Below, piece after piece: positions 8,159 to 24,145 of a stretch of 64,000 nt of DNA. Numbering within the stretch: position 1 is the stretch's first letter; each line of letters begins with the position of its first letter. The stretch is from Halobacteriovorax marinus. GTDB taxonomy: Bacteria; Bdellovibrionota; Bacteriovoracia; Bacteriovoracales; Bacteriovoracaceae. A program made the translations under genes and the position numbers. Under the pieces are notes generated by a model. It searched no databases and was not told the origin of the DNA. It saw nothing but the letters and a program-made list of their open reading frames with translations. The stretch lies in NCBI GenBank assembly GCA_002163155.1, contig MAAO01000015.1, positions 248,001 through 312,000 of the forward strand, written 5' to 3'.

Positions 8159-9091
8159 CTAATTCTGACACAAGCTTTTATCAAGCTTACAGGCCTTCAA
8201 CTGAAATTTCTTTGAAAGTTTCGGGCTAGTTTTGTGATAATAAGAATACTTATAGCAGGCACTGGCCCTAGCATTGCTTTTTGACTCACAGCTTCTGCGG
8301 TAGAACGTCATGGCGCGGGCGAGGTTTCCTTGTTCAATACTTTGAGCATATCTAAAACAACCTACACCATTTTCTAAATCACAGGCCTTTTCAAAGGAGC
8401 TCAGCTCCTTCTTACCTTCCTTTTGTTCAACCTCTCCAAGGACCAAGCAACCCTGATCATGTTGGTTGTTGCAGGACGTTTCCGCCCACTTTCTTGCCTC
8501 TTTTAAGTTTGCCAAAAAAAGGTAATCTCGAGAGAGTTTTGTACAATCCTTGTATTCCTTACCTTCACAACTCTTTTTTAAGAAAGCCATTTTCTCCTTT
8601 AGGAGTTTTAAGTAATTCGCCTGATCCTTCTTTTCCTCATCATTTAAATCTTTTTCTGCTGATCTAACAACTTTGGAAAAGTAGGGTTTTATTTGAGCTA
8701 GTCGTTTACAAGCTAATTCATTCTTTAAATTACAAGAGTTTTCTAGAACTTCAAGAGATTCTAAGAAGGATTTCTTCTCGAAAAATATTTCTCCAAGCTC
8801 ATAACAAGCAAGAGAGAAATTATAATCACAGGAAAGAACTAAGAACTTATGATCATTATCTAACTGACCCAACTTCTTATAAATCTTATCGACAGCATAA
8901 CAAGACTTACCATCCTTGAGCTTACACCCTGACTCATAGAGATTAAGGGGCTCCAGCTGCTTGCCTTGATGACTAGCAAGATAGGCTGCTTCAAAACAAG
9001 AGTTCGCATTTGAGCTCATACATTCATTTTTTAGCTCATCGAGAGTTTTAGCCTGAATAAGAAATGTAAAAAGAATTAGTAGTAATTTCAT
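8159..9091 (-). CDS. Sel1/TPR-like repeat protein, secreted, cysteine-rich
   Basis: Predicted periplasmic helical-repeat scaffold. After a signal peptide (MKLLLILFTFLIQA) it carries about eight units of 30-38 residues with a recurrent C...A.C.......L pattern and paired cysteines (for example NSCFEAAYL, SCYAV, ACYELGEIFFE, GCLVLGE, GCFRYAQSIEQG). This matches cysteine-bearing Sel1-like repeats, as in HcpA-type proteins, which usually bind other proteins. I chose ATG 9091 because it starts exactly at the signal peptide; the open frame extends to a TTG at 9130, adding 13 residues that would precede the signal. No strong ribosome site decides it. The same repeat type occurs in the N-terminus of the TadC-like protein at 33496-34710. 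Confidence 0.68.
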   Translation of the reverse strand: MKLLLILFTFLIQAKTLDELKNECMSSNANSCFEAAYLASHQGKQLEPLNLYESGCKLKDGKSCYAVDKIYKKLGQLDNDHKFLVLSCDYNFSLACYELGEIFFEKKSFLESLEVLENSCNLKNELACKRLAQIKPYFSKVVRSAEKDLNDEEKKDQANYLKLLKEKMAFLKKSCEGKEYKDCTKLSRDYLFLANLKEARKWAETSCNNQHDQGCLVLGEVEQKEGKKELSSFEKACDLENGVGCFRYAQSIEQGNLARAMTFYRRSCESKSNARASACYKYSYYHKTSPKLSKKFQLKACKLDKSLCQN

Positions 9092-9235
9092 TATACTAGA
9101 AAATATATCATGTCTCATTTCTACATTCAAATAGCTGAAAATAGGACCTCATACAAAAATCGAAAATAGTGCCAGGGAGCGAATCTATTGCAAATAGTAA
9201 ATATACTTACTATAATTCTGTGGGGGCAATACCAT

Positions 9236-10021
9236 ATGGAACAACCATCAAAACGTAAATTAAAAGCAAATACCGAGCTTGTAACATCCCTTACAAGAGA
9301 GACTATTACTGAGCTCTATAATTTATATTCGCTTTATTACGAAAATGTTCAATTGGATCAATTTACATCAGACCTCTTAAAAAAGATGAAAATCATTATT
9401 ATGAGAAACCCAAAGAAAGAAATATGTGGATTTTCTACTATTACTTTCTTTTCTTTAGATGATCATCCCGAAAAACCTTATTGTATTTACAGTGGCGACA
9501 CAATTATTCACCAAGACTATTGGGGAACCTCTGCTCTTACTATCGAGTTTCTTAAAAATATCATGCTCGCAAAGTTGCAGAATCCATTCAAGCCCGTTTG
9601 GTGGTTCTTAATTTCTAAGGGCTATAAGACTTATCTCTTACTTGCCAATAATTTCCATGAATATTACCCGAGAGTTAATGTAAATACTCCGTCTGATAAA
9701 TTAAATATTATAGAATCTCTTTCGGAAAAAATTTATCCAAATTGCTTCAGTAGAGAAACTGGAATCATTTCATTTGATGATGATAATCATGAAAGATTAA
9801 AACAATTCGTAGCCCCCATTACCGACCAAATCACAGCAAAGAATAAAAAAATAAAATTCTTTCAAGACTCAAACCCTAATTGGGAAAAAGGTGATGAGTT
9901 AGCGTGCATTGGAAAAGTTTCACTTGCCCTAGGCTTTACTCACCCCTATAAGGTCATCATGAAACCTCTTAAGAAAAAGTATCGTGTCACTTTAGATAAA
10001 CTCTTAAAAATTAACCTATGA
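9236..10021 (+). CDS. GNAT-like acyl/acetyltransferase, first gene of the oxidative cluster
   Basis: Probable N-acyltransferase-fold protein of unknown substrate. The central part carries strands like EICGFSTITFF followed by CIYSGDTIIHQDYWGTSALTIEFLKNI, the order of strands and pyrophosphate-binding loop expected in the GNAT superfamily, though the Q/R-x-x-G-x-G/A motif is degenerate. There is no signal peptide if ATG 9236 is used; a GGGGG run lies nine bases upstream. A TTG at 9188 would add 16 residues. The stop overlaps the next ATG by four bases (ATGA), so this gene and the GH3-type gene are translationally coupled. A second protein of similar style occurs at 18508-19665. Function is inferred from fold only. 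Confidence 0.55.
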   Translation: MEQPSKRKLKANTELVTSLTRETITELYNLYSLYYENVQLDQFTSDLLKKMKIIIMRNPKKEICGFSTITFFSLDDHPEKPYCIYSGDTIIHQDYWGTSALTIEFLKNIMLAKLQNPFKPVWWFLISKGYKTYLLLANNFHEYYPRVNVNTPSDKLNIIESLSEKIYPNCFSRETGIISFDDDNHERLKQFVAPITDQITAKNKKIKFFQDSNPNWEKGDELACIGKVSLALGFTHPYKVIMKPLKKKYRVTLDKLLKINL

Positions 10022-11544
10022 TTCAAGAGTGTTGTCACTGGGCCCTAAAGTCCTTATCACATAGAAAACATGAACATTTTTTAAAGAGTTTATCTGATCC
10101 AGAATTAGCTCAGAAAAAAGTTCTAAATCAAATTCTAAAAAAGTACAAAACTCTCTACCCAAAAGTTGAAAACCTCAATGACTTTAAAAAGAAATTCTCT
10201 CCTAGTACTTATGAAGACTGGAAAGATGGTGTTCTTAAGCAGAAGAGTTCTGGTTTAGAAACTGTGGCGCTAGAAGTTGAGAAATATGAGCCCACTAGTG
10301 GTTCAACTCAAAATGTTAAATGGATTCCTTATACTAAGTCTTTTCTAAACGAACTTGAATACGCCTACGAACCTTGGCTATTTGACCTCTATAAGAAATA
10401 TCCTGAAATTAATAAGGGAACACACTACTGGTCCCTCTCATGGTTACCGGATAATTTAAGAAATCAAAGTGTTGATGAAGCTGACTTATTTCCTTTTTGG
10501 AAGCGGCTCTTTCTAAAAAACCTTATGACCTTAGATAGTGGAATTTCCCACTTGGAAAGCTCACAGCTCGCTCAAAAAGCAGCCCTACTCTCGTTACTCT
10601 CAAAAAAAGTTTCACTCATCTCCATTTGGAGCCCAACCTATCTTCTTTCTTTAATTGAAATGATGATGGTCTCAAAAGATGAAATTATTTCGAGTCTGCA
10701 AGATAAGTCATTTCAAAAACAGCTGCATATATTTTCAGATAAGGACTGTGTAGACCGCAGTATTCAGATTTTAAAAAGCATTAATAGTTTTGATAGCAGT
10801 GTCTCAAAAGAGCTCTTCCCAGAACTTAAACTCATCAGTATGTGGGACACTTCTCTTTCTAATAAATGGGCACAAAATGTTTCCACTATGTTTGCACACG
10901 CAGAGACTCAGGGAAAAGGTCTCTGGGCCACAGAAGGTGTCGTCACTATTCCTTTTGGTGACAAGTATCCTCTGGCCATTAACTCCCACTTCTATGAATT
11001 TGAAAATATTGAAACAAAGAAAATTCTAAGTAGTTGGGAATTAGAAAAAGACATGAGAGTGAAACCACTACTCACCTCTGGGTCAGGCCTATTTAGATAC
11101 GCTCTAAATGATGAATTAAGAGTGAGTGATTATCTTGAAAAAACACCCTGTTTTGAATTCATCGGTAGATTACGCGATGTTGATATAGCGGGAGAGAAAT
11201 TAGCCCACGCTGAAATTAAAAACATATCCAAGAAGTTAGAGTTAGAATTCAATGTCAGAACAATTTCTGTATTTGCCCATAATATTAGTGGAAAACCTAG
11301 AAAGTATGAACTTCTACTTGAAGGGCAATATTCTGATGCTCTCCTAGCAAAGGTAAAAAATAGTTTTGAGCAACTTTTGCTTGAACACTTTCACTACCGC
11401 TTGGCTAGAGAACTGGGACAGCTTAAAGCAGCTGAAGTTATAACTCGAGAGAATGGCATTAAACATTATTACGAAAAAGTCTCTAAGCAGATAAAAATTT
11501 CTGGTAATATTAAATTAGAAGAAGTGGTCGTTTTAAATAATTGA
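10018..11544 (+). CDS. GH3-family adenylate-forming enzyme (GH3 auxin-responsive promoter-like)
   Basis: Predicted acyl-acid activating enzyme of the GH3 family. In plants these adenylate jasmonate or auxin and join them to amino acids; the bacterial members mostly lack an assigned substrate. The diagnostic ATP loop is at about residues 91-106, EPTSGSTQNVKWIPYT. Later come a T/S-W-D-T region (LISMWDTS) and the motif SGSGLFRYALNDELRV followed by FEFIGRLRD, the hinge and nucleotide-binding part typical of GH3 enzymes. Its 508 residues match the family. It is translationally coupled to the GNAT-like gene and lies seven bases before the Rieske gene, so it belongs to a three-gene operon. It probably activates a carboxylic acid later modified by the oxygenases. 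This GH3 is unrelated to glycoside hydrolase family 3. Confidence 0.82.
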   Translation: MIQECCHWALKSLSHRKHEHFLKSLSDPELAQKKVLNQILKKYKTLYPKVENLNDFKKKFSPSTYEDWKDGVLKQKSSGLETVALEVEKYEPTSGSTQNVKWIPYTKSFLNELEYAYEPWLFDLYKKYPEINKGTHYWSLSWLPDNLRNQSVDEADLFPFWKRLFLKNLMTLDSGISHLESSQLAQKAALLSLLSKKVSLISIWSPTYLLSLIEMMMVSKDEIISSLQDKSFQKQLHIFSDKDCVDRSIQILKSINSFDSSVSKELFPELKLISMWDTSLSNKWAQNVSTMFAHAETQGKGLWATEGVVTIPFGDKYPLAINSHFYEFENIETKKILSSWELEKDMRVKPLLTSGSGLFRYALNDELRVSDYLEKTPCFEFIGRLRDVDIAGEKLAHAEIKNISKKLELEFNVRTISVFAHNISGKPRKYELLLEGQYSDALLAKVKNSFEQLLLEHFHYRLARELGQLKAAEVITRENGIKHYYEKVSKQIKISGNIKLEEVVVLNN

Positions 11545-11551
11545 GAAAAGT

Positions 11552-12604
11552 ATGATTAGTAGTTTAAAAGAAAGAGATGGAGCATTAATAAACAATTGGT
11601 ATATTGCCTGCACCTCTAAAGAACTATCAAAGAAACCTATTTCCCGTATGATTTATGATACGAACATCGTTCTTTTTCGAGATGAAAATAACGTCGCAGG
11701 TTGCCTCTTAGACAGATGTCCTCACAGAGGAACTCCCCTGTCTAAAGGATCTTGTGTGAGCGGAAATCTTCAATGCTCATATCATGGATGGATATTCAAC
11801 AATTCAGGGGTTGTACAAAATGTACCTTCTGAAGGTGTAGAGAAAACGAAAGTAAGAAGAATAGTTCAAAACTTTGCCACTCATGAAAAAGATGGAATTA
11901 TTTGGGTTTGGTTTGGAGAAGAAGGAAAGGAAGATATCTCAAAGATTTGGGACTTTCCCTATAGAAATGATCCTTCTTGGCATTCCTACTATATGGTCAC
12001 AGACTTTGAAAATGAAGTGACAAACCTTACGGAAAATTTTGTGGATGTTCCCCATACCGTATGGGTCCATAAAGGTTGGTTTAGAAATCGCTCCTTTCAA
12101 CATGTCCCAGCCGTTGTAAGCACTGAGAATGGAGTAGTCAATGTTGAGTATGATCAACCCAATGACAATATTGGCGTACTCATTAAAGCATTTTTAAATC
12201 CAAAGAATGAGCCCATGGTTCATACTGACAAATTTATTTTTCCAAATATAACCAGAGTTGATTATTCCTTTGGCTCCAGTTTCAAATATGTCATCAATAG
12301 CCAATGCACTCCTGTGTCGACCTTTAAATCCAGAGTCTACACTTATATTGCCTATAAACTTCCTATTGGAGGTAGCCTGATTAAGCCTTTCTTAAACTAC
12401 TACACTAGAAAAGTTATAGAGCAAGATGTGGTAATCATGAGGCACCAAAAACAGAATTTAATTAATGAAGAAAAGCCTCGTTTCCAATCAACCCTTGCAG
12501 ATGAGCCACATATTCAAATTGAATTTTTAAGGGAACTTGGAATTAAAGGAAGTGATAAGGTTTTTGAACATAAGAAGAGTAAAGAAATATCCTTCTATAT
12601 TTAA
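11552..12604 (+). CDS. Rieske non-heme iron oxygenase, alpha-subunit type
   Basis: Predicted O2-dependent hydroxylase, desaturase or demethylase that receives electrons through a Rieske cluster. The Rieske motif is Cys56-x-His58 (CPHRG) and Cys75-x-x-His78 (CSYHGW). The mononuclear iron site follows at ENFVDVPHTVWVH with Asp165, His168 and His173. At 350 residues it resembles the vanillate-demethylase/PaO-type single-component oxygenases more than two-subunit dioxygenases; no small subunit, ferredoxin or reductase gene is near. It is the last gene of the GNAT-GH3-Rieske operon and its stop directly abuts that of the convergent desaturase gene. The substrate is unknown; a lipid or aromatic product of the GH3-type enzyme is a reasonable guess. 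Confidence 0.88.
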   Translation: MISSLKERDGALINNWYIACTSKELSKKPISRMIYDTNIVLFRDENNVAGCLLDRCPHRGTPLSKGSCVSGNLQCSYHGWIFNNSGVVQNVPSEGVEKTKVRRIVQNFATHEKDGIIWVWFGEEGKEDISKIWDFPYRNDPSWHSYYMVTDFENEVTNLTENFVDVPHTVWVHKGWFRNRSFQHVPAVVSTENGVVNVEYDQPNDNIGVLIKAFLNPKNEPMVHTDKFIFPNITRVDYSFGSSFKYVINSQCTPVSTFKSRVYTYIAYKLPIGGSLIKPFLNYYTRKVIEQDVVIMRHQKQNLINEEKPRFQSTLADEPHIQIEFLRELGIKGSDKVFEHKKSKEISFYI

Positions 12605-13396
12605 CTATTCTATTACATCAGTAATAAGACCTAACTTTCTGAGCAATCTAATATATTGAAATCCTAAATCAAATTCCCCTTTCATATGGGCCATATTTGA
12701 AGAATTTGGTTTTCTATGGTGATTATTATGAAATCCTTCTCCACCAGTGAGGAGGGCCACAAACTTATTATTCGTTGAAAAGTCTCTTCCCTCATAATTT
12801 TGATAACCCCAAACGTGTCCTAGAGAATTTATCATCCATGAACTATTTAAAGTGAGAGTCACGCGCACACATCCAAACCAAAGTAGCCATTTCCACCCCC
12901 CAATGAAGAAGAGAAGAGCAAATAAGAGGAAGAAGAAAGGAAAGTGTACTGCTTGAAAAAAGCGTAGAGTTTTATCTTCAGCTAAGTCCTTAGGAACTGA
13001 TTGAAAGTCTTTTAATTGTTTTCTCTTTCCCTGTTCAAATATCCAACCAAAGTGTGAACGCCAAAAACCTTTTATAGGAGAATGTGGGTCATTTTCTTTG
13101 TCAGAATGTTTATGATGAATTCTATGAACCTGTGCCCACATAATCGGACCCGCTTGACCGGCGATGAGAGCGCAAGTTAAGTGAAATATTTTAATTGGGT
13201 AGATAGACTTAAAAGACCTATGGGTTATTTCCCTATGAAAACAAACTGAAATTCCTATCAGTGCAAAGAATTGCCACAGAAGAATTGTCATGAGTAGAAG
13301 TTTAACATCAAAGAAATATATAAATGCCGCTAAAGCGCCAATATGTATTACCCCTAGAAAGAAAATCATAAATAGAGTTGTTAATTTACTAAGCAT
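12605..13396 (-). CDS. Acyl-CoA delta-9-type fatty acid desaturase
   Basis: Membrane diiron desaturase that introduces a double bond into a fatty acyl chain. All three histidine boxes are present: HREITH (His54-His59), HRIHH (His91-His95) and FHNNHH (His223-His227). Four hydrophobic segments place the boxes on the cytoplasmic face. At 263 residues it is a short bacterial stearoyl-CoA-desaturase-like protein. It overlaps the upstream 140-residue membrane gene by eight bases on the same strand, so they form a pair. A second desaturase of a different type lies at 23093-24043. Substrate and regiochemistry cannot be read from the sequence; delta-9 is the usual activity of this subgroup. Confidence 0.86.
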   Translation of the reverse strand: MLSKLTTLFMIFFLGVIHIGALAAFIYFFDVKLLLMTILLWQFFALIGISVCFHREITHRSFKSIYPIKIFHLTCALIAGQAGPIMWAQVHRIHHKHSDKENDPHSPIKGFWRSHFGWIFEQGKRKQLKDFQSVPKDLAEDKTLRFFQAVHFPFFFLLFALLFFIGGWKWLLWFGCVRVTLTLNSSWMINSLGHVWGYQNYEGRDFSTNNKFVALLTGGEGFHNNHHRKPNSSNMAHMKGEFDLGFQYIRLLRKLGLITDVIE

Positions 13397-13811
13397 CTAT
13401 CTTGAATGATACCACTAAAGTGAAACTCGCTAATACCAGGTTAAAAATGATATTAATCAAACTTCTTTTAAGATCTATTTTATAAGCAGCAAGAAATAAA
13501 TCTTTTCGAAAAATTCTAAATAGTGCTCGTCCAAAGAAAAGTGCTGCTAAAGTTTGTAGTGTAAATTGTCTATAAGCTAAATCTTCAACAATAGCTCCAC
13601 GCAAACAAAATGCACTCAAAGTTAGAGCAAAAATTCCCAACGCCTTTAAACAGATGTCATATTGTGGACCAAATTGGTCAGGAAAGGTGAGGTCATAGAG
13701 CTTTTTCCCAAAGATTCTAGTCCAAGAATGCGGGCCGAGAACTGCTAACCCCGCAAAAATATGATAAGCAAATGACCCCACTAGAATATATGTCCCCATA
13801 CTATTAATCAC
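13389..13811 (-). CDS. Small integral membrane protein of unknown function
   Basis: Not recognised. The 140-residue protein has about four hydrophobic segments (about residues 5-25, 52-72, 80-98 and 115-136) with conserved-looking turns GPHSWTRIFGKK and FPDQFGPQYD between the first two. GTG at 13811 is the likely start because AAGGA lies seven bases upstream; an ATG at 13799 would remove four residues but has no ribosome site. It precedes and overlaps the desaturase gene, so it may be a partner or anchor for that enzyme. It is divergent from the AurF-like gene with a 93-base gap. Confidence 0.6.
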   Translation of the reverse strand: MINSMGTYILVGSFAYHIFAGLAVLGPHSWTRIFGKKLYDLTFPDQFGPQYDICLKALGIFALTLSAFCLRGAIVEDLAYRQFTLQTLAALFFGRALFRIFRKDLFLAAYKIDLKRSLINIIFNLVLASFTLVVSFKIDA

Positions 13812-13904
13812 TACATATTCCTTATTTGTTTGTTACAATATTCTAGGCTTAAGAGCCTGACAAAACCATCTTTGTTCAATTAATTTTAAGACAGACTAGA
13901 CCTA

Positions 13905-14819
13905 ATGGAAACAACTGAAACTATAAAATTTCAAAGACAATTTGATTCCTATATAGGTGATATGAATAAGTTTAAATCTAAGTGGCAGGATTTTGAAACA
14001 TATCCAAAAATGGCGCTAGATAAGTCTGACTACCAAGATGAGTTAACTCCTTTCCATGGTCTTGAAATTTTTGACACCCTAACTAAAGAAATCAAAGAAA
14101 ACCTTTTCATAGAATATGTAAAATTCCTCTCCGAAGTGCAAATCTACTTTGAACAACTCGTGGTGTATGCCTTTAGAAGTTTAAGAGAGAGATATTCACT
14201 TGATAAGACAGATAAAGATATCGTAAATAAATTTATCTACGAAGAGGTCTATCACTCTATCGCCTTTAGAAATTTTCTATCTTCACAGAAACAATTTGAT
14301 TGGCCAAGAGAGTATAATGTTCCAAAAGTTAAGATGCTTAGAAAATTCATCTGTTTTTGCATTAGAAAGAATCCTCTAGCAGTCACTCTTCCTGGAGCCA
14401 AGCTTGAAGCTTTTACTGTGGAATACAGCAAACTCATCAAGAATGTCTACAAAGACAATCATACAAACGCTTGGTCGCTAATTAACCACTATCATCACAT
14501 AGATGAAGCAGTTCATGTAAATGTTGAGATGTATATTTATAAGAAATACATAGGAACAAAGAGCTCTCTTGGAACTCTATTAAGTACTTTCGCCTTTGTC
14601 GGATTCTTACAAGTCATTCTCTTTTTTGGCTGTAAGAACGTTGTTAAAAGATCTTTTCCTAAAATGGGTCTACTTGAAACAATGAAGTGGACTTTACGAA
14701 TGGGCAAGTGGGCAGTGAGAGATCTAAGACCCTACAGACAAGCATTGAAAGTTACTGAGAGAAACTTTGATAAATACCAACCAAAATATAAGAAAATTTT
14801 AAAATTTATTTACTGGTAA
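13905..14819 (+). CDS. AurF-like non-heme diiron oxygenase
   Basis: Predicted diiron N-oxygenase or hydroxylase of the AurF/CmlI family, ferritin-like fold. AurF uses a set of Glu and His ligands spaced ExxH and HxxxExxH. Here Glu114-x-x-His117 (EEVYHSIAF) and His197-x-x-x-Glu201-x-x-His204 match exactly, and Glu83 (or Glu77) and Glu168 (or Glu173) can supply the remaining carboxylates. Known members oxidise aromatic amines to nitro groups; many homologues have unknown substrates. At 304 residues it fits the family. A hydrophobic stretch at about 225-242 is unusual for soluble AurF and could mean a membrane substrate. It is followed after ten bases by a secreted-protein gene. Confidence 0.8.
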   Translation: METTETIKFQRQFDSYIGDMNKFKSKWQDFETYPKMALDKSDYQDELTPFHGLEIFDTLTKEIKENLFIEYVKFLSEVQIYFEQLVVYAFRSLRERYSLDKTDKDIVNKFIYEEVYHSIAFRNFLSSQKQFDWPREYNVPKVKMLRKFICFCIRKNPLAVTLPGAKLEAFTVEYSKLIKNVYKDNHTNAWSLINHYHHIDEAVHVNVEMYIYKKYIGTKSSLGTLLSTFAFVGFLQVILFFGCKNVVKRSFPKMGLLETMKWTLRMGKWAVRDLRPYRQALKVTERNFDKYQPKYKKILKFIYW

Positions 14820-14829
14820 GGAGTAAAAA

Positions 14830-16302
14830 ATGAAAATGACTTTTATTCTAGCAAGTCTGCTTTGCAGTAGCTTAACATTTGCAAGTCTTGATCAATACAC
14901 AAGCGGATACAAATGGATTTCACACGAGAAAACAGTTAAGGCTAAAGTAAAGGCAAAAAAACGTGGAAGAAGATCTATTTCAAGTAAAGTTGAAGTTGAT
15001 GACTCTCGCCTCTCTAAAGAGTTCAAGTCTTTTAGAAAGACTTATCTAAGTATCAAAGATCCAATTGAATTAGAAAAACAATTAAGACATATCGACAAGA
15101 ATTACGATTCTTATCCTGATGATTTAAAACTTGTAGCGGCTATCCTAACTCCAATGTTAGAGATGAAATCATTTGCATATAGAATGTATCCTCTACTTAA
15201 AAGAGAGAAAGTTACTCACAGTGTTCTTTTAACTAGAGTTTATAGATTCGCTTCATTTATGTCAGTTAATCTTCCAACAGACCAATGGGATGCTGGTTTT
15301 AGATTTATGAGTGAGCCTTTTGAATATGAAATGACTAATAATCGTTTTCACAAAACTAGTGACTTACAAGAGTTTGTAACTAATAAAATCTATCCTGCCC
15401 TAGCGAAAGCCGCAGAGAGAGTTCAGGCCTTAGACTTTTCAACTAATAATATGACTTGGGACCATAAATTACTTTATGGAACTGCAAGCTTTCAAGATGA
15501 ATTCAAGAGATACCGTCTAATTGGTGAATCTGAAAGATTACTTCTATTAGCAAATCTTCATTATGGTCTTTCGTGGTCAGCCAGGTTCTCTGCTTATAAC
15601 GTGTCTGGAACTCTATCTCTCGTAAAAGATATGGGATCTCTTTATGGGATTGATTCGATGTTTGGATTTAGTAAAGTTGACGGTGTCACGGCAAAGAAAA
15701 TAGTAGCTAAAATAAACAAGAGAAAATACAAAAAACTTTTCACGATCCTTGATGGTGGAAAAGAAAAAATGCAACTTTCATTCAAGCATTTAAGAGAAGC
15801 AGCAAGAGTATCTGTTGTCGCTTGGGAAGAGATGAAAGAGAGAAGAAATGGAGAAGCTAACGAATCTGCTTTAATCAGGTCAGAGATGTTTGAATCTTTC
15901 ATTGGTAGAATTGATAGAGGCGCTGAAACATTCGTTGATATCGTAAATGGTCCAACAATAGTTAGAAGTGATATCACTGGAGAAGTGATTACTGTTGATC
16001 TTCCTAAGTTCTTAATGAATCCTCCTAAGGATTTAAAGTCCCTTCTCCCTACTTCATTTACATCTGCTGATGATATGAAGAGTAAAAAGATAGCCAATAA
16101 AAGTGGGAAAATGAAGAGTGTTAAATTTAGAAATTATCACTACGGAAAGGCCACGAGTTGGGAATTAAAGTCTTATAACACTCTACTTCCTGAAGTAAAA
16201 AATGGAGATGACATAAGTACAGCGGCGAGGATTTTAAATCAAAGCCCTGGAGCTGCACCAGTGGCACTTATTATCAATCCATTCATGATGTATAATAGAT
16301 AA
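14830..16302 (+). CDS. Secreted protein of unknown function, 490 residues
   Basis: Not recognised. It has a signal peptide (residues 1-19, MKMTFILASLLCSSLTFAS), then a short basic segment KAKVKAKKRGRRS (about 38-50), then a largely alpha-helical body without cysteine-rich or TPR signatures. The strong site AAGGAG lies five bases before ATG 14830. The gene is ten bases downstream of the AurF-like gene and is most likely co-transcribed. Its stop lies eight bases from the stop of the convergent exporter gene. In context it might be a periplasmic partner of the exporter or of the product, but there is no direct sign of function. Confidence 0.6.
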   Translation: MKMTFILASLLCSSLTFASLDQYTSGYKWISHEKTVKAKVKAKKRGRRSISSKVEVDDSRLSKEFKSFRKTYLSIKDPIELEKQLRHIDKNYDSYPDDLKLVAAILTPMLEMKSFAYRMYPLLKREKVTHSVLLTRVYRFASFMSVNLPTDQWDAGFRFMSEPFEYEMTNNRFHKTSDLQEFVTNKIYPALAKAAERVQALDFSTNNMTWDHKLLYGTASFQDEFKRYRLIGESERLLLLANLHYGLSWSARFSAYNVSGTLSLVKDMGSLYGIDSMFGFSKVDGVTAKKIVAKINKRKYKKLFTILDGGKEKMQLSFKHLREAARVSVVAWEEMKERRNGEANESALIRSEMFESFIGRIDRGAETFVDIVNGPTIVRSDITGEVITVDLPKFLMNPPKDLKSLLPTSFTSADDMKSKKIANKSGKMKSVKFRNYHYGKATSWELKSYNTLLPEVKNGDDISTAARILNQSPGAAPVALIINPFMMYNR

Positions 16303-16309
16303 GTTATTC

Positions 16310-18508
16310 TTAGAGATCTCTACTTTTTCTCATAATTGATTTGAGCATGTAGAGGTCTCCTAATAAAGAAAGTAAGAAGCCTACAAACAAGAGAACTCCG
16401 AAAACCTTTGGAGGATTAAAACAAGAAAAGAGAAAAGTCAGAGAAGTTATCGACATGATAATTGCCGTTATAATAGAGGCCTCACTTTTCTCATCAATCC
16501 CCTGATCTAAATTATTTCCTTTAATACCATTTAAAATGAAGTGAATAGCATTATCACCAGTTAATCCCACAAGAGTGGAGATAACGACACAGGTAATAAA
16601 GTTAATTTTGATTTGAAAGACACTCATTATACAAATAACAATCGCCACTCCCCAAAACGTGGTCATTGAAAGTTTAAATACGGGAATATTTTTCACCATA
16701 AAGCTAAGAGTTAGAATAATCATAAAAACAATGGCTAGAGAGAGCTTAAAGCTGCGGAGTAGTGTCTTTGGAACTTCCTGAGAAAAGTCAGCATAAGCGA
16801 CATGAAGTCCTGACAAGTGACATCTCTTAGAAGTACACAACTCTTCGTTGACATATATTCTCATATCATTAATAGACTTTAGGTCAGTTGATTTAAGGTA
16901 AATAATCGCCCTAGCTTCTGGTTCCGAAATTAACCTCTTATAACTAGGAGATGTCCTAAGGGATCTTCTTACGACTTTTTGATTCAAGGGACTAAGCCCC
17001 TCTGTAAAATAACTCAACATTAAATAAGGTGATTCAATTTTGACAACATTCACTAACGCTTTGATCTTACTTAAAACTTCTTGGTTAAATTCTTCATCGC
17101 TAAAGTCCTTAAAGACCAAACTCACATCTCCAGAGTATCCCCTGCTCTCTTTAAGGTATTCCATTCCAACTCTATAAGAGCTCTTTTTTTCAAATAGCTC
17201 CAATGGTACGTCAGAAACATTTAGGTGGTTTAGAGAATAAGGAATAAATAAGTAAGCAACTAAAAGAAGATAGGTTAATTTTCGAGGAAAGTTTATTTTA
17301 GAAATCCAATTGATTGAAATTATCTTAAAAACTTTCTGCGAATCGATCCATTTAAAATCACTCTTAAGAAATGTTAGAAAAGCTGGTAGCACTAGAAATA
17401 TAACAATCCATTCAATCACTCCACTAACAGCGGCCCAAAGACCTAATCGTTTCACAATATCTAAGTCACTTGAATAGAGAGAAATAAAACCTACAAAAGT
17501 TGTAAGGGAAGTTAAAAAACTTGGTAAAGCGTTATTTAAGAAAGCTTCCTTCCAGTGTTTATCTGGATTTCGAGATTGAAAATTTGAGAGAAATATAAAA
17601 TCTCCCATTGAGCTCACTGTTAAAAGTAAGAAGAGGGCATTATTTAAAATATCGATAGGTGTGCCAGTTAGCGACATTAAACCAAAGAGGATCCCTGTAC
17701 TTAAGATCAGAGTTCCGAGGAAGATGAGACTTGAACTCCAAGTTCCTAAGAAGGCCTTGAACAGTATAATAATGATTACTGAAATAATTATATTGAGTTT
17801 AAAGTTCTTCTTTAAACCGTCAGACATCTCTTGGTGATAGGAAGCTTCACCGATAAAGTACGCCTTAAGCTCAGGATAGAGTTTTTCAGTTTCACTCCAA
17901 AAAATTTTCATCTTTCTCACGAGCTGTGGAATAACTTTACTTTGGAAGTTCAATTCATCTTTCTCAGAGAAAGTAATATTGATGCCAAAATCAGAATAGT
18001 CATCATTTGAGAATATTTTCTTCCACGGAGTTGTAGCTATTGGCGAAAGTATAGAATTATCAGTCCTTGGAAGATCACAATTGAATCTTAAAAGGGGATT
18101 AAAGAGCAGTTTAGGAAACTCTCCATTTTGCTCCTTCACATAGCTTGTTTTTCTTAGAGTAATGGGAGAGATAGAGTAGTAGATATTAGAAGTGTTAAAA
18201 TTTACTTTATTTCGCCAACCTCTAATATGACAAAGGTCTGCTTCGTTTAGAACAGAGTCTTGTTTCTTTATTATAACAAATACTGAAGGCATCACCTCAA
18301 AATCTTCTTTTAGATCACTATACTCTTGATAAGTTTGATAACTCTTGTTTAGCAACTCATCAATAGTGATAAGTAATTTAAAAGGTTTTGCCTGGCCGAT
18401 ACAAATTACAATAAGAGTAAAAAGAAAGAAAATAATTTTCTTGGGGTTTCTAATAGAGTACGAAATCATACTCACTAATAATTTTTGAAAACCTTGTAGA
18501 AAGACCAT
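16310..18508 (-). CDS. MMPL/RND-superfamily exporter
   Basis: Predicted proton-driven lipid or small-molecule exporter of the inner membrane. It shows the duplicated RND layout: TM1 (about 22-40), a first periplasmic region of about 190 residues, a cluster of five TM segments (about 232-375), TM7 (about 408-425), a second periplasmic region and a final TM cluster (about 590-722). A GD-containing fourth-helix pair is visible as SSMGDFIFLSN and LVGLTGDNAIHFI, resembling the charged positions of HpnN/MMPL proteins. At 732 residues it is a compact member without a fused periplasmic adaptor. Its ATG overlaps the stop of the upstream GNAT-like gene (TAATG). Position in the oxidative cluster suggests it moves the cluster's product or a lipid intermediate. 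Confidence 0.82.
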   Translation of the reverse strand: MVFLQGFQKLLVSMISYSIRNPKKIIFFLFTLIVICIGQAKPFKLLITIDELLNKSYQTYQEYSDLKEDFEVMPSVFVIIKKQDSVLNEADLCHIRGWRNKVNFNTSNIYYSISPITLRKTSYVKEQNGEFPKLLFNPLLRFNCDLPRTDNSILSPIATTPWKKIFSNDDYSDFGINITFSEKDELNFQSKVIPQLVRKMKIFWSETEKLYPELKAYFIGEASYHQEMSDGLKKNFKLNIIISVIIIILFKAFLGTWSSSLIFLGTLILSTGILFGLMSLTGTPIDILNNALFLLLTVSSMGDFIFLSNFQSRNPDKHWKEAFLNNALPSFLTSLTTFVGFISLYSSDLDIVKRLGLWAAVSGVIEWIVIFLVLPAFLTFLKSDFKWIDSQKVFKIISINWISKINFPRKLTYLLLVAYLFIPYSLNHLNVSDVPLELFEKKSSYRVGMEYLKESRGYSGDVSLVFKDFSDEEFNQEVLSKIKALVNVVKIESPYLMLSYFTEGLSPLNQKVVRRSLRTSPSYKRLISEPEARAIIYLKSTDLKSINDMRIYVNEELCTSKRCHLSGLHVAYADFSQEVPKTLLRSFKLSLAIVFMIILTLSFMVKNIPVFKLSMTTFWGVAIVICIMSVFQIKINFITCVVISTLVGLTGDNAIHFILNGIKGNNLDQGIDEKSEASIITAIIMSITSLTFLFSCFNPPKVFGVLLFVGFLLSLLGDLYMLKSIMRKSRDL

Positions 18509-19665
18509 TATACTAACGCCATATCAAATGCTGGCATATTCCCACAAGCTTCTATTATATCAAACGTTTCACCATCTTCAGAAACTTTGTGGACAGTATA
18601 TAAACCCATTGCTGTTGCATGAGTAAAATATCCCTTTAGTTCACTTTTAAAGTTCTCTCTATCAAAATCGCAATAAGCCAAAAGATTTAGTCCTCTGAAC
18701 TCACAATAGAAGTAGTTCACTAATTCTTTAAAGAGTACCCCTTTTTCAATTCTAGAAATATCTTCTTTAAAACTCACTTGATTGATATATTTGATACTAA
18801 TAGCTTTTTCTTCCTGCGGTAAATCAAAGACATCTAAAAATGGAATATATTTTGAAATGACCTTAAGCAGTTTAAACATCGTAGGCACGCCACTGATCAG
18901 TAATTGTTTTGAAGACTTTGGCCCCCACAGACTTGTAGCAGCAAGGATCTCATCCGTTCTAGGATCTCTTAACAGAATCCAGTTCTTCTTAGAGTAATCT
19001 TCCCAGTTTTTGAAACGATAGCTTAACTCTGACTTATACTCTAGACCAAAAGATCTCAGCTTATGGTCACTCTCTAAGAAGTTTATAAGTTCTACAATAT
19101 TTTCCTGCGTAACTTTATCAATTTTATAGTTTTGTGATTTTCTAAATCCATAAGATCCTACAATATTAACCATATGATAATCTTCAAGCAGACTATACTT
19201 AATACCTTTAATTTTTGAATTCGCTAGGTTGTTTCTACTTTGTACATTGTCGTGAACAAGCGCTGTTTGATAGTGCCTACAATGAAATGTTTCTTCGAGA
19301 TTTTTTGAATTATTGATAAATAATGAAAAGAAACCTCGCCACTGACGAATGAGTTTTCTATTGAGGGAAATGCGTAAATCCCCTAAGTAACCTACTTTTA
19401 CTAGCTTAGAGTTAATATACCCATCTCGGTAACTAACAGTGGCTATCCCCTGAATTGTCTCTTGCTCATCTCTTAGAAGAAAAACTAGATATTCAGAAGA
19501 TTTTTCCTTCATAAAAGAAAAGAAATCCCTACCTCTTTTGTATATAATATTATGGGAGCTAGTTGTCAGTTGAGACCGATGGTAATACTCAAGTATTTCT
19601 TCGTTATCACCCTCTGTAGCTAAACTAATATTGGGATAATCTTTTAGAAGCGAAAGTAAAGTCAT
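18508..19665 (-). CDS. GNAT-superfamily acyltransferase-like protein, 385 residues
   Basis: Probable N-acetyltransferase-fold protein with two parts. The N-terminal half (about 1-175) has the GNAT order: an acidic start helix, strand YLVFLLRDEQETIQGIATVSY, then LVKVGYLGDLRISLNRKLIRQWR, which sits where the acetyl-CoA loop belongs. The C-terminal half (about 190-385) repeats a weaker version (WILLRDPRTDEILAATSLW) and may be a second degenerate domain. The start is ATG at 19665. It is translationally coupled to the exporter downstream. It resembles the 9236-10021 product in style, so the cluster may contain two acyl transfer steps. The substrate is unknown. Confidence 0.62.
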   Translation of the reverse strand: MTLLSLLKDYPNISLATEGDNEEILEYYHRSQLTTSSHNIIYKRGRDFFSFMKEKSSEYLVFLLRDEQETIQGIATVSYRDGYINSKLVKVGYLGDLRISLNRKLIRQWRGFFSLFINNSKNLEETFHCRHYQTALVHDNVQSRNNLANSKIKGIKYSLLEDYHMVNIVGSYGFRKSQNYKIDKVTQENIVELINFLESDHKLRSFGLEYKSELSYRFKNWEDYSKKNWILLRDPRTDEILAATSLWGPKSSKQLLISGVPTMFKLLKVISKYIPFLDVFDLPQEEKAISIKYINQVSFKEDISRIEKGVLFKELVNYFYCEFRGLNLLAYCDFDRENFKSELKGYFTHATAMGLYTVHKVSEDGETFDIIEACGNMPAFDMALV

Positions 19666-19711
19666 ACAATATTATAGCTATTACTAACCAATACTGTCAC
19701 TTTATTCATTT

Positions 19712-22474
19712 ATGGAAAATTTAATCAATTACTTTAATCTTGGGCTAGGAAAATTTAAACTCTCCCCCAAGTATACCGTCTGCCTAATTCTTCTTGCTTA
19801 TAATATATTAGGAATCACTGTTCTCGGATTTAACAGAAGTTTTGAGCAGGTTTTTCTAACCACTGCTGCTGTCTGTTTACTGCAAATGTTTTTTGATAAA
19901 CTCTTTAAGAAAGAAGTCATCTTTCCCTTGAGTGCCATAACCACTGGTTTAGGATTATCGATTCTTCTAAACTACGGTCACAGTTTGCTTTTTCCACTCG
20001 TGCCCGTATTTCTGGCAATTGCTTCAAAGTTCTTTTTTACTTTTAAAGGCAAGCATATATTCAATCCAGGCTTAATGGGTGTTGTACTCTCCTTACTCCT
20101 TACCAATGAATTTATTTCTCCCGCACCCGCTTATCAGTGGAACGGGTTGACCTCAATGTCGTTATTTATCATTATGCCTTCTTTATTCTTATTCATGCCT
20201 AAAATTAATCGTCACTATTTAGTTGGATCCTTTCTTGTCGTTTTCGTTTTACAGCTTGTACTTAGATCAATATTAATTAAACACTATCTTCCTTTTAATA
20301 CTTTGTTCTTTGGAACTATTACTTCTCCACCATTTTTCTTATTTGTTTTCTTTATGATTACAGATCCAGCAACTACTCCTAGTGACAAAAAGAAGCAGAT
20401 TATAGTAGGTGTATTACTCGCATTATTTGATTTATTCTTTCACTTATTTAAAAGTTACCATACCTTCTTCTATGCAGCGTTACTGCTTGGTTCTGGAAAA
20501 CTAATATATCTACATACGAAAGAACTTAAGAGTGGAGGAATTGAGTACCTTAAAAAATCCTTCATACACTCGGGATATTTTAAGAGGTTTTTCACAATCC
20601 TCTTCATTGCAGTCATCAGTGTTCTCGTTTATAAGTTTGTTTTAAATGATTTTGGAAGCTTTTATAAACCTGATTTTAAAATGACTCTAGTCAAGACAGA
20701 GAAGACTGGAATGAAGTTCTCTAAGGGTGAAATATTCGAAGCAGTGGATCCCAGAGTTCAGCATATGGGAAAATGGATCCTGGCCATATCCGATGGAGTT
20801 GCCGTAAGTGATTTCAATAATGACGGACTTGTAGATGTCTTTTTCACAAATGGTCACAAGAGTAAAGAGGATAGAAACGCACTCTTTCTCAATACAGGTA
20901 ACTTTACTTTTAAACGCTTTGACTCAAAAGAATTAAGTTTCTACGCAAGTGACTTTAAGAAATATGGTGTTCCTTCCAATGCTCTCTTTGTAGACTATGA
21001 TAACGATGGGGATAAAGATCTCTATATCACTTATGCTTTTGGAAGTATGGGTACGTCCAGACTCTTTGTAAATAAGTTCATTGAAACAGGCTCTGTAAAA
21101 TTCGTGGAAAGTACTAAAGTATTAGGACTTGAGAAGTTTAGTAACTCGGCGACAGCAAACTTCTTTGATTTCAACAATGATGGTCTACTAGATCTCGTTT
21201 CCGGAAACACCATTAGAACACATTTAGAAAACTACAAAAAACCTACTGAGTTAAATCTCTTCTCTCTTCCACAAGCTGAATATGAAGGTGATGAGAGAAT
21301 GTTTGATTTCATGCACGACAGTTGGCACATGTCTAACAACGGTTCTGAAAATTTTATTTTCTTAAATCAGGGAGATCGTTTCAAGATACTAGATCCAAAA
21401 GAGATTGGTATGCCTGAAACAAGATGGACTATGGCAATTGGTACTGCGGACTTTAATCAAGACGGCTGGACAGATCTCTACATGGCAAATGATTTTGGTG
21501 CTGACGATCTCTACTACAACCAACAAGGAAAAGGATTTATCAATATTAAAGGAAAGTATTTCGGAGATATTGGTAAAGACACCTATAAAGGAATGAATGC
21601 AACAGTAGCTGACTTTGATAGAAACGGAATGAGTGATGTTTACATATCAAACGTTCATCATCCTCTACAAGCAGAGGGAAGTTTACTTTGGTCATTCTTT
21701 CCAGGCGTCGAAAATCAGAAACCAAAGATTATAGATAATGCCACAGCAGCTGGTAGCTTAAATGAGAATAGATTTGGTTGGGGAGCTTCTTCGACGGATT
21801 TTAATAATGATGGACATGTCGACCTCGTTCAGGCCAACGGTATGGTAGATAATAAGTTTGATAAAAAAGACGACTCATGTCCCGACTATTGGTACATCAA
21901 TGAAAAGATTGCACGCTCGCCTCCCTCTATTCACAGATTCATAAACAAATGGGGAGATTTAAGAGGAATGTGCATTCACGGATTTGAAAAGAATAGAATG
22001 TACTTAAATAGAGGGGTTGCCAGTAAACCTCAATTCATTGATATCGCTGATAAAGTAGGAATGGATCAAGTTGGAAATTGGCGAGGAATGGCCTCTGGAG
22101 ATTTTAATAACGATGGAAAGATGGATTTAATTGTCAGCTCTCTTTACCGCGATCCCCTAGTCTTTAAAAATGAAGCCACTACAAATAAGAATCACTGGAT
22201 AGGATTATCCCTTACTTCCACACAGGCCACTTGCAATAGAGATGGAATAGGATCTGTTGTAAAAGTTAATTACACTGATAGCGAAGGTATTTCTCAAATT
22301 CAAAGAGTTGAAACAAAAATTGTAAATGGATTTTCTGCTCAAGATGATACAAGAGTTCATTTTGGTTTAGGGGCGGGATCTACATTAAATATGATCACTG
22401 TGAATTGGTGTAAGTCGAATCTTAAAGAATACACTAATTTGAAAATTAATAATTATAACAAATTAATACTATGA
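19712..22474 (+). CDS. RnfD-like membrane domain fused to FG-GAP/VCBS propeller and ASPIC/UnbV domain
   Basis: A 920-residue fusion. Residues about 15-310 are a polytopic membrane domain resembling NqrB/RnfD: FNPGLMGVVL and MITDPATTP are at the usual places of the family's FNP and DP-x-T/S motifs. From about 345 the protein is outside the membrane and carries at least seven DxDxDG-type calcium-binding FG-GAP repeats (for example SDFNNDGLVDVFF, DYDNDGDKDLYIT, DFNNDGLLDLVS, DFNQDGWTDLYM, DFNNDGKMDLIV), predicting a beta-propeller. The last 100 residues (NHWIGLSL to HFGLG) match ASPIC/UnbV, as in CRTAC1-type proteins. I infer an inner-membrane protein with a large periplasmic propeller. It starts an operon with the next two genes (4-base overlap). 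A role in electron supply to the oxygenases is only a hypothesis. Confidence 0.82.
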   Translation: MENLINYFNLGLGKFKLSPKYTVCLILLAYNILGITVLGFNRSFEQVFLTTAAVCLLQMFFDKLFKKEVIFPLSAITTGLGLSILLNYGHSLLFPLVPVFLAIASKFFFTFKGKHIFNPGLMGVVLSLLLTNEFISPAPAYQWNGLTSMSLFIIMPSLFLFMPKINRHYLVGSFLVVFVLQLVLRSILIKHYLPFNTLFFGTITSPPFFLFVFFMITDPATTPSDKKKQIIVGVLLALFDLFFHLFKSYHTFFYAALLLGSGKLIYLHTKELKSGGIEYLKKSFIHSGYFKRFFTILFIAVISVLVYKFVLNDFGSFYKPDFKMTLVKTEKTGMKFSKGEIFEAVDPRVQHMGKWILAISDGVAVSDFNNDGLVDVFFTNGHKSKEDRNALFLNTGNFTFKRFDSKELSFYASDFKKYGVPSNALFVDYDNDGDKDLYITYAFGSMGTSRLFVNKFIETGSVKFVESTKVLGLEKFSNSATANFFDFNNDGLLDLVSGNTIRTHLENYKKPTELNLFSLPQAEYEGDERMFDFMHDSWHMSNNGSENFIFLNQGDRFKILDPKEIGMPETRWTMAIGTADFNQDGWTDLYMANDFGADDLYYNQQGKGFINIKGKYFGDIGKDTYKGMNATVADFDRNGMSDVYISNVHHPLQAEGSLLWSFFPGVENQKPKIIDNATAAGSLNENRFGWGASSTDFNNDGHVDLVQANGMVDNKFDKKDDSCPDYWYINEKIARSPPSIHRFINKWGDLRGMCIHGFEKNRMYLNRGVASKPQFIDIADKVGMDQVGNWRGMASGDFNNDGKMDLIVSSLYRDPLVFKNEATTNKNHWIGLSLTSTQATCNRDGIGSVVKVNYTDSEGISQIQRVETKIVNGFSAQDDTRVHFGLGAGSTLNMITVNWCKSNLKEYTNLKINNYNKLIL

Positions 22475-23100
22475 TTAAAAAAATTCTCACTTTCATAATT
22501 TTCTTAGGTACATTAAGTTGTTTCGCTAAGTATGAAATGATTTTATTTTCCTATGATCATAAAATCATACCAGGCTGGAGTCCTCACACTTTTGCCCTTT
22601 TTGTTGAGCTTGATGATCTAACTAAGAAAGTGATACAGAGTACTCATTTAAGTTGGTTACCTGCCACCTCGCCAAATGATGTGGAAGTATTCGCTAAGAG
22701 TGTAAAAGGGAAGAACTATTCACTGAAAGAAACCCTTGAATTTGCCCTAAAAAACGAAAAGAAGCTCTATTACAAGGGTTCCTACATCATAATGAAGGAG
22801 CTCTTTACGAAGGCACAGAATCAAGAAAGAAAGCTTCAAAGTGGAGAAGTAGAATACAAAGTACTTTGGACCAATAGAGAAGGAAAAGAACGAACTTATC
22901 ACTGTGTGTATGCAATTAGTGATCTACTTACTGGAAGAGGCCTCATGAGCAATGGCATGTCACATACATTAGATTCAATGGAAAACATTCAAAGACATTT
23001 TAAAGAGTACGTAATTTCAAGAGAAGAAGTAAGTGAAGAGATTAAGGCTCATTTTAATTTAGGAACTTATCTTAAAAAGATGGAGATGGTAAATGACTAG
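22471..23100 (+). CDS. Secreted protein of unknown function, possible permuted papain-like fold
   Basis: Not firmly recognised. A signal peptide (about 1-19, ending SCFAK) precedes a 190-residue domain. A conserved-looking SPHTFALFVEL strand near residue 38-48 is followed much later by YHCVYAISDLL near 148-158. A histidine before a cysteine in this order is what circularly permuted NlpC/P60 (YiiX/LRAT-like) proteins show, so a thiol hydrolase or acyltransferase is possible but unproved. The ATG overlaps the stop of the RnfD/FG-GAP fusion (ATGA) and the stop overlaps the start of the desaturase by eight bases, so the three are translated as one unit. Confidence 0.5.
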   Translation: MIKKILTFIIFLGTLSCFAKYEMILFSYDHKIIPGWSPHTFALFVELDDLTKKVIQSTHLSWLPATSPNDVEVFAKSVKGKNYSLKETLEFALKNEKKLYYKGSYIIMKELFTKAQNQERKLQSGEVEYKVLWTNREGKERTYHCVYAISDLLTGRGLMSNGMSHTLDSMENIQRHFKEYVISREEVSEEIKAHFNLGTYLKKMEMVND

Positions 23101-24043
23101 TGACGATTTCAAAACTCTCCAAAGTAAGTACAAGCATTTAAAGACAAATAATTTCTTAGCTTTCTTTATTATATTTGCTCTCTCGCTAACGACTCTTTCG
23201 GCCCTCTATCTTTCCACATCAGAAAGTTGGAGTATCTGGCTGCTAGGACAAGTTATTCTTGGAGTTAATATTATTTCTTGGTTTGCTATTTTACATGACC
23301 TTGGTCATAACCATTTCTTTTCAAACAAAAGACTTAATTCCATAACTGGTCATCTTGCCTCATTCATTTGTATTCTCCCCTACTATCCCTGGAAATACAT
23401 TCACAGAGAGCATCATGTTTGGACAGGTTGGAAAGATAGGGATCCAACTATGACAATAGTTGCCCCAAGAGATCTCTCACAAGGTAAGAGAAAATTTGTG
23501 AACCTATGCTGGAAGTGCTGGATCCCAATCATGACTCTCTCTTTCTCTTTTGATAACTTTTGGAATATTAGAAAACTCTTTCGTATGTATCCTTCTTGGA
23601 AGTTCAAGTGGAGAAATACTTTTAGTATTATTTTCTTAATTACTGCCTACACTACCCTTATCTATACTTTTGGTTGGTCACCATTTTTTAAAATCTGGGG
23701 TCTTGGTTATTTAATTTTCTTATTGATCAGTGATCCACTTCTACTTAGTCAGCATAGTGGTGTTCCACAAATGATAAGTAAGGAAGGCGTGCCAACCAAG
23801 AAAGTTCACTTTAAAGATCAAGAACAATACACTCGTGGTTTAATATTTCCTAAATGGATTAGTAGTTATATTTTGATTGGGTTTAATAGCCACATACTAC
23901 ATCACTTCTTTCCAACACTACCTGGCTATCGTCTTGTGCAAATGGATGAAAACTTTAGTAATTCAGAAAATTGGATGAGCTGGCTAGTTAAAGCTAAGAA
24001 TACAGATGCCATTGAACTTCTGTTTGAAAACATTATCGAGTAA
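23093..24043 (+). CDS. Membrane fatty acid desaturase, DesA/omega type
   Basis: Predicted diiron desaturase or hydroxylase acting on lipid-bound acyl chains. The histidine boxes are HDLGH (His68-His72), HREHH (His104-His108) and HILHH (His267-His271). Their spacing is that of the delta-12/omega-3 and beta-carotene-ketolase-like group, not the acyl-CoA delta-9 group found at 12605-13396. Hydrophobic segments at about 20-40, 48-66, 85-98, 180-198 and 202-216 fit the family. It is the last gene of the three-gene operon with the propeller fusion and the secreted protein. Activity could be desaturation, hydroxylation or epoxidation; the boxes do not discriminate. Confidence 0.85.
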   Translation: MTSDDFKTLQSKYKHLKTNNFLAFFIIFALSLTTLSALYLSTSESWSIWLLGQVILGVNIISWFAILHDLGHNHFFSNKRLNSITGHLASFICILPYYPWKYIHREHHVWTGWKDRDPTMTIVAPRDLSQGKRKFVNLCWKCWIPIMTLSFSFDNFWNIRKLFRMYPSWKFKWRNTFSIIFLITAYTTLIYTFGWSPFFKIWGLGYLIFLLISDPLLLSQHSGVPQMISKEGVPTKKVHFKDQEQYTRGLIFPKWISSYILIGFNSHILHHFFPTLPGYRLVQMDENFSNSENWMSWLVKAKNTDAIELLFENIIE

Positions 24044-24070
24044 GTAAAATTTAGTGGATTTTTTTAAAAA

Positions 24071-24145
24071 TGGTCGGAGTGAGAGGATTTGAACCTCCGA
24101 CCCCCTGCTCCCAAAGCAGGTGCGCTACCCCTGCGCTACACTCCG
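24071..24145 (-). tRNA. tRNA-Pro (anticodon UGG)
   Basis: On the minus strand positions 24145 to 24071 fold into a full cloverleaf of 75 bases: acceptor CGGAGTG/CACTCCG, D stem GCGC/GCGC, anticodon stem CCTGC/GCAGG with loop TTTGGGA (anticodon UGG), T stem GGAGG/CCTCT with TTCAAAT loop. The 3' CCA is encoded at 24073-24071. A good promoter lies upstream. Confidence 0.95.

Follow-up and report, generated by a model that had tools for sequence, protein, structure and literature searches.

A candidate oxidised-acyl gene cluster beside tRNA-Pro in Halobacteriovorax marinus, with a GH3 enzyme, a Rieske oxygenase and an UnbU-UnbV fusion

Do twelve back-to-back genes of Halobacteriovorax marinus, which encode a GH3-type adenylating enzyme, several oxidative enzymes and an exporter, belong to one pathway, and what would that pathway make? 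The genes (A to L) lie at positions 9236–24043 (about 15 kb) of contig MAAO01000015.1 in a window of 64 000 nt, which is the whole stretch of DNA analysed. A preliminary description made from the sequence had proposed that an acyl compound, either heavily oxidised or polyunsaturated, is synthesised and exported, and this is still the best reading of the block. That the block is a real, jointly inherited single cluster is strongly supported by the co-occurrence and proximity of its genes in relatives, together with an empty insertion slot in a genome of the same genus; we hold with even confidence that the cluster produces and exports a single fatty-acyl compound tailored by oxidation, in all likelihood an acyl amide or a related lipid.

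Inheritance of the block as one cluster

All 12 open reading frames (ORFs) were intact and were placed as previously described, in five strand-alternating units, ABC (+), ED (−), FG (+), IH (−) and JKL (+). Genes were spaced by at most about 105 bp and, within units, overlapped or were separated by a few bases. Three 5′ control regions were delimited (9131–9235, 13812–13904 and 19666–19711), the first of which lies upstream of A-B-C, has no assigned strand and forms the left boundary of the island by slot comparison. The cluster occupies the whole interval from a TPR-like gene (8159–9130) to a tRNA-Pro(TGG) gene identified with ARAGORN (24071–24145, − strand), the latter forming the right boundary. 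In the same genus, this slot is empty in G004 (locus L164), where the TPR-like gene and tRNA-Pro are 47 bp apart; in G003 a metal-transport module (HupE/FTR1-like, identified by eye from sequence) lies there, in G001 some 8 kb of other DNA, and in G002 a related cluster of the same type (type 1, defined below) occupies it in a different order. The slot (8159–24145, compared with L162, L163 and L164) is an integration hotspot and the block is a genomic island beside tRNA-Pro.

Each of six proteins (the GH3 protein B, and A, C, G, J and F) served as a separate query against 129 genomes of the window's family, with E-values given per genome and the ORFs of relatives called mechanically. Every homologue found on the contig of the GH3 gene lay within 25 kb of it (A 40/40, C 42/42, G 23/23, J 16/16, F 5/5). 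The others were on separate contigs, mostly in fragmented assemblies, or in genomes with no detected GH3 gene; contig breaks lower these counts, and a few apparent genuine splits into two loci were seen (e.g. G007, G026 and G091). Co-occurrence with GH3 gave Fisher p-values, which ignore shared ancestry, of 5e-27 for A, 1e-27 for C, 5e-10 for G, 2e-8 for J and 0.007 for F. Gene order was scrambled among genera while content was retained, which argues for functional selection despite the shared ancestry that the p-values leave out. The arrangement in five units is largely preserved in two genomes of other genera, G086 and G080, where K and L again follow J. G and H are separated in the G080 cluster (L053:15201-18533) by inserted genes for a response regulator, a small protein and a sensor histidine kinase (named by eye), which hints that the cluster is regulated.

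The synteny survey thus agreed with the single-cluster claim, as the genes stayed near GH3 and were not scattered over unrelated loci. It also bears on the view that several unrelated operons, with no pathway in common, came together by chance at a tRNA hotspot. This view is in keeping with a slot that carries other cargo or nothing in genomes of the same genus, and with five units that start separately and share no motif; it is very improbable, because other genera have these genes clustered at different sites, in altered order but with their content preserved, and co-occurrence p-values go down to 1e-27. Coincidental clustering of A, B, C, G and J is largely refuted, and D, E, K and L could be passengers.

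Enzymes and unassigned proteins of the block

The core gene B (10018–11544, +) encodes a GH3-family, putatively acyl-adenylating enzyme, with a Pfam GH3 score of 69.5 bits against a cut-off of 23.6. The N and M domains were above cut-off and the C-terminal GH3 domain was slightly under it (20.5 versus 23.6 bits); the TSGST ATP loop, the GLxRYxxxD region and the C-terminal Lys were all conserved, and plant acyl-acid amido synthetases were its structural relatives. The genome of the window also encodes another, distantly related GH3-like protein (an 834-residue open frame, 23% identity; G000:C12:66401-67753). The GH3 partner A (9236–10021, +) had no significant Pfam match, and sequence searches of solved structures with A and with c11, a protein of sister clusters discussed below, returned nothing useful. 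The AlphaFold model of A (pLDDT, the predicted local distance difference test score, 94) showed a GNAT fold, with Z-scores of 11 to 12.5 to many GNATs; NatD was among the top matches (Z up to 12.5), as was AAC(2′). The third core gene, I (18508–19665, −), encodes a two-part GNAT-like transferase with a profile link to a gammaproteobacterial family (E 1.5e-24); 5 of 25 members of the I family matched PF00583. The proposal of two GNAT-like transferases was therefore borne out, for A by its modelled fold, the sequence match being weak, and for I by family membership.

Pfam likewise upheld the labels given to the GH3 protein, the Rieske protein, both desaturases, the MMPL protein and the FG-GAP, RnfD and UnbV domains. 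The Rieske non-haem iron oxygenase C (11552–12604, +; Pfam Rieske, 77.5 bits, and VanA_C) has both metal sites, CxH...CxxH at residue 56 and NxxDxxHxxxxH at 162, and is the only oxygenase-sized Rieske protein in the genome. The membrane fatty-acyl desaturases D (12605–13396, −; DesA-like, FA_desaturase 80.4 bits) and L (23093–24043, +; 98.2 bits) each have three His boxes. They are two of 11 desaturases in a genome of 4.55 Mb, for which 0.04 would be expected per 15 kb, so that the block exceeds chance, although the nearness of the genes in relatives is the decisive evidence; two further fatty-acid desaturase genes lie side by side elsewhere in that genome (G000:C13:39421-40952). The AurF-like assignment of F (13905–14819, +), a putative diiron protein, stood in part: two ExxH motifs were present (EVYH at 114 and EAVH at 201, matched by ELYH and EIFH in the L053 homologue), while the AurF score of 23.8 bits was under the Pfam cut-off of 29.6. 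Homologues of F were present in 7 other genomes of the family. Iron-site motifs were thus seen, as first noted, in four enzymes (C, D, L and F).

The MMPL/RND-type exporter H (16310–18508, −) scored 30.6 bits with MMPL (cut-off 20.5) and 63 bits with HAE3, and has membrane segments. A sterol pathway was also considered and set aside as weak; the sterol-sensing match of H was below cut-off (18.1 bits) and the SdmA match in C reached only 74 bits against a cut-off of 600. Three membrane or secreted proteins had no known family, as originally stated: the small membrane protein E (13389–13811, −), with hydrophobic segments and with homologues adjoining F in G062 and G086; the secreted 490-residue protein G (14830–16302, +), with a signal-like N terminus, a core protein of type-1 clusters; and the secreted 209-residue protein K (22471–23100, +), whose homologues are flanked by J and L in G080 and G086. 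A model of G (pLDDT 79, moderate, from 13 sequences) gave no significant fold match in the PDB.

The UnbU-UnbV fusion and the proposed product

The membrane protein J (19712–22474, +) had been described as an RnfD/FG-GAP/UnbV fusion. The fusion and its domains are real (FG-GAP_3 120.7, NQR2/RnfD (PF03116) 47.6 and UnbV_ASPIC 38.6 bits), and the identification as an Rnf subunit was rejected: RnfD/NqrB family models gave 21.5 to 26.5 bits against cut-offs of 207 to 400, and no other Rnf subunit gene was found among the Pfam-identified neighbours. Searches with tblastn matched Streptomyces plasmids, among them the C-1027 plasmid SGLP1 of Streptomyces globisporus, on which a CRTAC1 gene, an RnfD-like gene and a polyketide synthase (PKS) gene follow one another, the first two as separate adjacent genes; the second gene carries, in another Streptomyces, the annotation ‘enediyne biosynthesis protein’. 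Residues 31–268 of J matched the C-1027 RnfD-like protein (26% over 266 residues, BLASTP E 3e-15, profile E 8e-26) and residues 338–896, in the FG-GAP/CRTAC1 half, matched the CRTAC1 protein (24% over about 600 residues, BLASTP E 8e-26, profile E 8e-50). These two proteins are known as E4/UnbU and E3/UnbV. Judged by these BLASTP and profile alignments and by the low RnfD scores, J is a collinear fusion of the UnbU (E4) and UnbV (E3) proteins of the enediyne cassette and not an Rnf subunit.

Two-gene UnbV + UnbU pairs in enediyne order were also found at L165 (G110:C135), L166 (G007:C31) and L167 (G133:C9), beside radical-SAM/DegT/ADH genes or YcaO/JmjC genes, and suggest that the pair serves several pathways. 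On a Serratia proteamaculans plasmid (NZ_MT039191.1, L139:3096-15925), DUF1702, UnbV and RnfD-like genes accompany genes for an acyl carrier protein (ACP), a ketosynthase and an SDR protein, a set that resembles an enediyne cassette without the large PKS.

The proposal of an oxidised acyl product gains a specific argument from J, because it is related to enediyne UnbU/UnbV. In the proposed pathway, D and L would desaturate an acyl chain from ordinary fatty-acid metabolism, which the Rieske enzyme C and the diiron protein F would then oxidise further; J would carry out an E3/E4-like oxidation, plausibly forming an alkyne by removing hydrogen from a conjugated chain. The GH3 enzyme B would activate the carboxylate with ATP and join it to an amine, the GNATs A and I would transfer acyl groups onto the head group, and the MMPL pump H would export the product with the secreted proteins G and K. 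We infer the order of these steps, the amine acceptor, the alkyne formation and the exported product, and alkyne formation by J would be the boldest step. The product would probably be heavily oxidised, that is, unsaturated and perhaps alkyne-bearing. In support, the GNAT-GH3-GNAT core lies beside RND or HlyD/MFS/TolC exporters in Gammaproteobacteria, and sister clusters hold relatives of CylC-type halogenases, enzymes that act on fatty-acyl chains.

Several observations weigh against this pathway. Comparison of the three control regions found no common regulatory motif, D, E, F, K and L are patchily distributed in relatives, and the window encodes neither a reductase nor a ferredoxin dedicated to the Rieske enzyme. 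No iterative enediyne PKS or thioesterase was found among the 12 ORFs or their flanks; DUF1702 (E5/UnbL) had no Pfam match in the cluster, and its profile found none in the relatives' loci. FAAL and ACP had no Pfam match in the cluster either, and the gaps of at most 105 bp are too small for an ACP gene. With no carrier protein, PKS or DUF1702 partner, J may lack enediyne-type chemistry here, and UnbU-UnbV pairs also occur in the other contexts given above.

The same oxidised acyl product could arise with J as only an electron-transfer or scaffold protein for C, D, F and L, and with no alkyne. The N-terminal half of J does fall in the broad NqrB/RnfD superfamily (it satisfies PF03116), and the cluster has no other redox partners for its oxygenases; yet the likeness to enediyne E4 (65 bits) far exceeds that to solved RnfD (14.5 bits), and type-2 clusters instead pair a ferredoxin with their Rieske proteins. 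This role for J is tenable at somewhat less than even probability, and since it overlaps with the pathway proposed above (both yield an oxidised acyl product) the confidences in the two do not sum to one. Alternatively, nothing would be released and the product would be a lipid of the cell's own envelope (a modified phospholipid or pigment lipid), with the desaturases and the Rieske enzyme tailoring acyl chains in place and MMPL, G and K placing the lipid in the outer membrane. HpnN, a hopanoid-associated transporter, is among the matches of H, some type-1 clusters contain genes for PAP2 and a hexapeptide acyltransferase, and membrane desaturases generally act on lipids; however, the core recurs with HlyD-MFS-TolC sets, which are typical of outward release, and, unlike a basic envelope component, the cluster is lacking in roughly half of the family and in the slot of G004. 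An envelope lipid is rather unlikely. To return to the exported acyl product, its most far-reaching form would be a PKS- and carrier-free route, in which the stand-alone UnbU-UnbV fusion makes alkynes on (or halogenates) ordinary fatty-acyl chains and GH3/GNAT enzymes convert these to amides for export, which would be a new class of specialised lipids. This form is doubtful; if true, the class would be common to predatory Bdellovibrionota and, stripped-down, to oil-degrading bacteria and Acinetobacter.

Core locus, sister clusters and known systems

A GH3 alignment scan of one genome per species (84 980 species) yielded 507 relatives, and the best 80 of the 507 were examined. Among these 80 loci, A was present in 72 and the I family in 71, in genera that included Alcanivorax, Thalassolituus, Oleispira, Moritella, Alkanindiges and Acinetobacter (including Acinetobacter baylyi), and RND pumps or HlyD-MFS-TolC exporters (named by eye) were frequent neighbours. 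Because of these counts and neighbours, GNAT-GH3-GNAT-exporter is assigned as the core, with the oxidative enzymes as add-ons. The core is widespread in oil-degrading and other Gammaproteobacteria and apparently undescribed; full-text searches of open-licence PMC papers found no description of the GH3 locus or of the window's cluster.

Three add-on types were distinguished in the window's family. Type 1, that of the window, combines Rieske and UnbU-UnbV with desaturases, G and MMPL. Type 2 (G001, G003 and G004 of the same genus, and others) has three to four Rieske proteins accompanied by a ferredoxin, and FA_hydroxylase, ferritin-like, SDR, hexapeptide acyltransferase and c11 proteins. Type 3 has tandem B12-radical-SAM enzymes and is seen also on a Citrobacter plasmid; the mobilizable plasmid NZ_CP134684.1 of Citrobacter portucalensis (L136:9740-21126) carries a type-3-like set of GH3, five radical-SAM genes, N-acetyltransferase, PAP2 and fatty acid desaturase. 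In the GH3 tree, type 2 formed one clade (100/100), a branch (100/99) set type 2 together with four type-3 rows, apart from both type 1 and the gammaproteobacterial core, and type 1 was not monophyletic. If the proposed reading of the cluster is right, these loci form a superfamily of biosynthetic clusters in which a GNAT-GH3-GNAT core carries swappable oxidative modules.

By its matches, c11 is a homologue of CylC halogenases. It matched a hypothetical protein on a Planktothrix plasmid (32% over 92%) beside FAAL, ACP and PKS/nonribosomal peptide synthetase genes, and a Stanieria protein adjoining a sulfotransferase and a P450; a sulfotransferase/P450 CylC cluster is known from Stanieria (Eusebio et al. 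2021, PMC8406957). The orphan CylC clusters of cyanobacteria that contain Rieske proteins have two to four of them, along with acyltransferases and, in most cases, a sterol desaturase; they lack a carrier protein, and no activating enzyme was reported in them (PMC8406957). With c11 and these clusters taken together, type 2 therefore looks like their GH3-bearing relative. No c11 homologue was found in the window or in type-1 maps, and J and c11 were not seen in one cluster in the relatives' cluster maps.

The preliminary description had found no known pathway that matched. Parts do match the enediyne PKS cassette, the gammaproteobacterial GNAT-GH3-GNAT-exporter locus and, through the sister clusters, the orphan Rieske/CylC clusters; the core locus itself does appear to be undescribed. 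The likeness to the cyanobacterial Rieske/CylC clusters lies in Rieske, desaturase, acyltransferase and diiron enzymes and in the lack of a carrier protein, whereas the window has one Rieske protein in place of two to four, no CylC homologue, and GH3, GNATs, MMPL and UnbU-UnbV in addition. Bacterial polyyne clusters consist of FAAL, ACP, several desaturases and a thioesterase. They combine an acid-activating enzyme with several membrane desaturases, as the window does, but in the window GH3 replaces FAAL, ACP is missing, and the Rieske enzyme, UnbU-UnbV and GNATs are extra. Plant GH3 acyl-acid amido synthetases (JAR1, AtGH3.15) belong to the same family as B and align with it in the ATP loop, GLYRYxxxD and C-terminal Lys regions, although identity is low and B lies in a bacterial operon. 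The GNAT-GH3-GNAT-exporter locus that occurs in genera such as Acinetobacter, Alcanivorax and Thalassolituus has the same three core enzyme families beside exporters; it lacks the oxidative enzymes and has an RND or HlyD-MFS-TolC exporter where the window has MMPL. The enediyne cassette is said, in work of Gui et al. from 2024, to yield iodoheptaene, diiodotetrayne and pentaynes. Homologues of E4 and E3 of the C-1027 cassette are both present in the window, fused in J in contrast to the separate adjacent genes of C-1027, and J sits among desaturases and a Rieske enzyme; if the assignment holds, enediyne E3/E4 would occur next to desaturases, fused into a single protein and away from any polyketide context, and their chemistry could be tested in a simpler setting.

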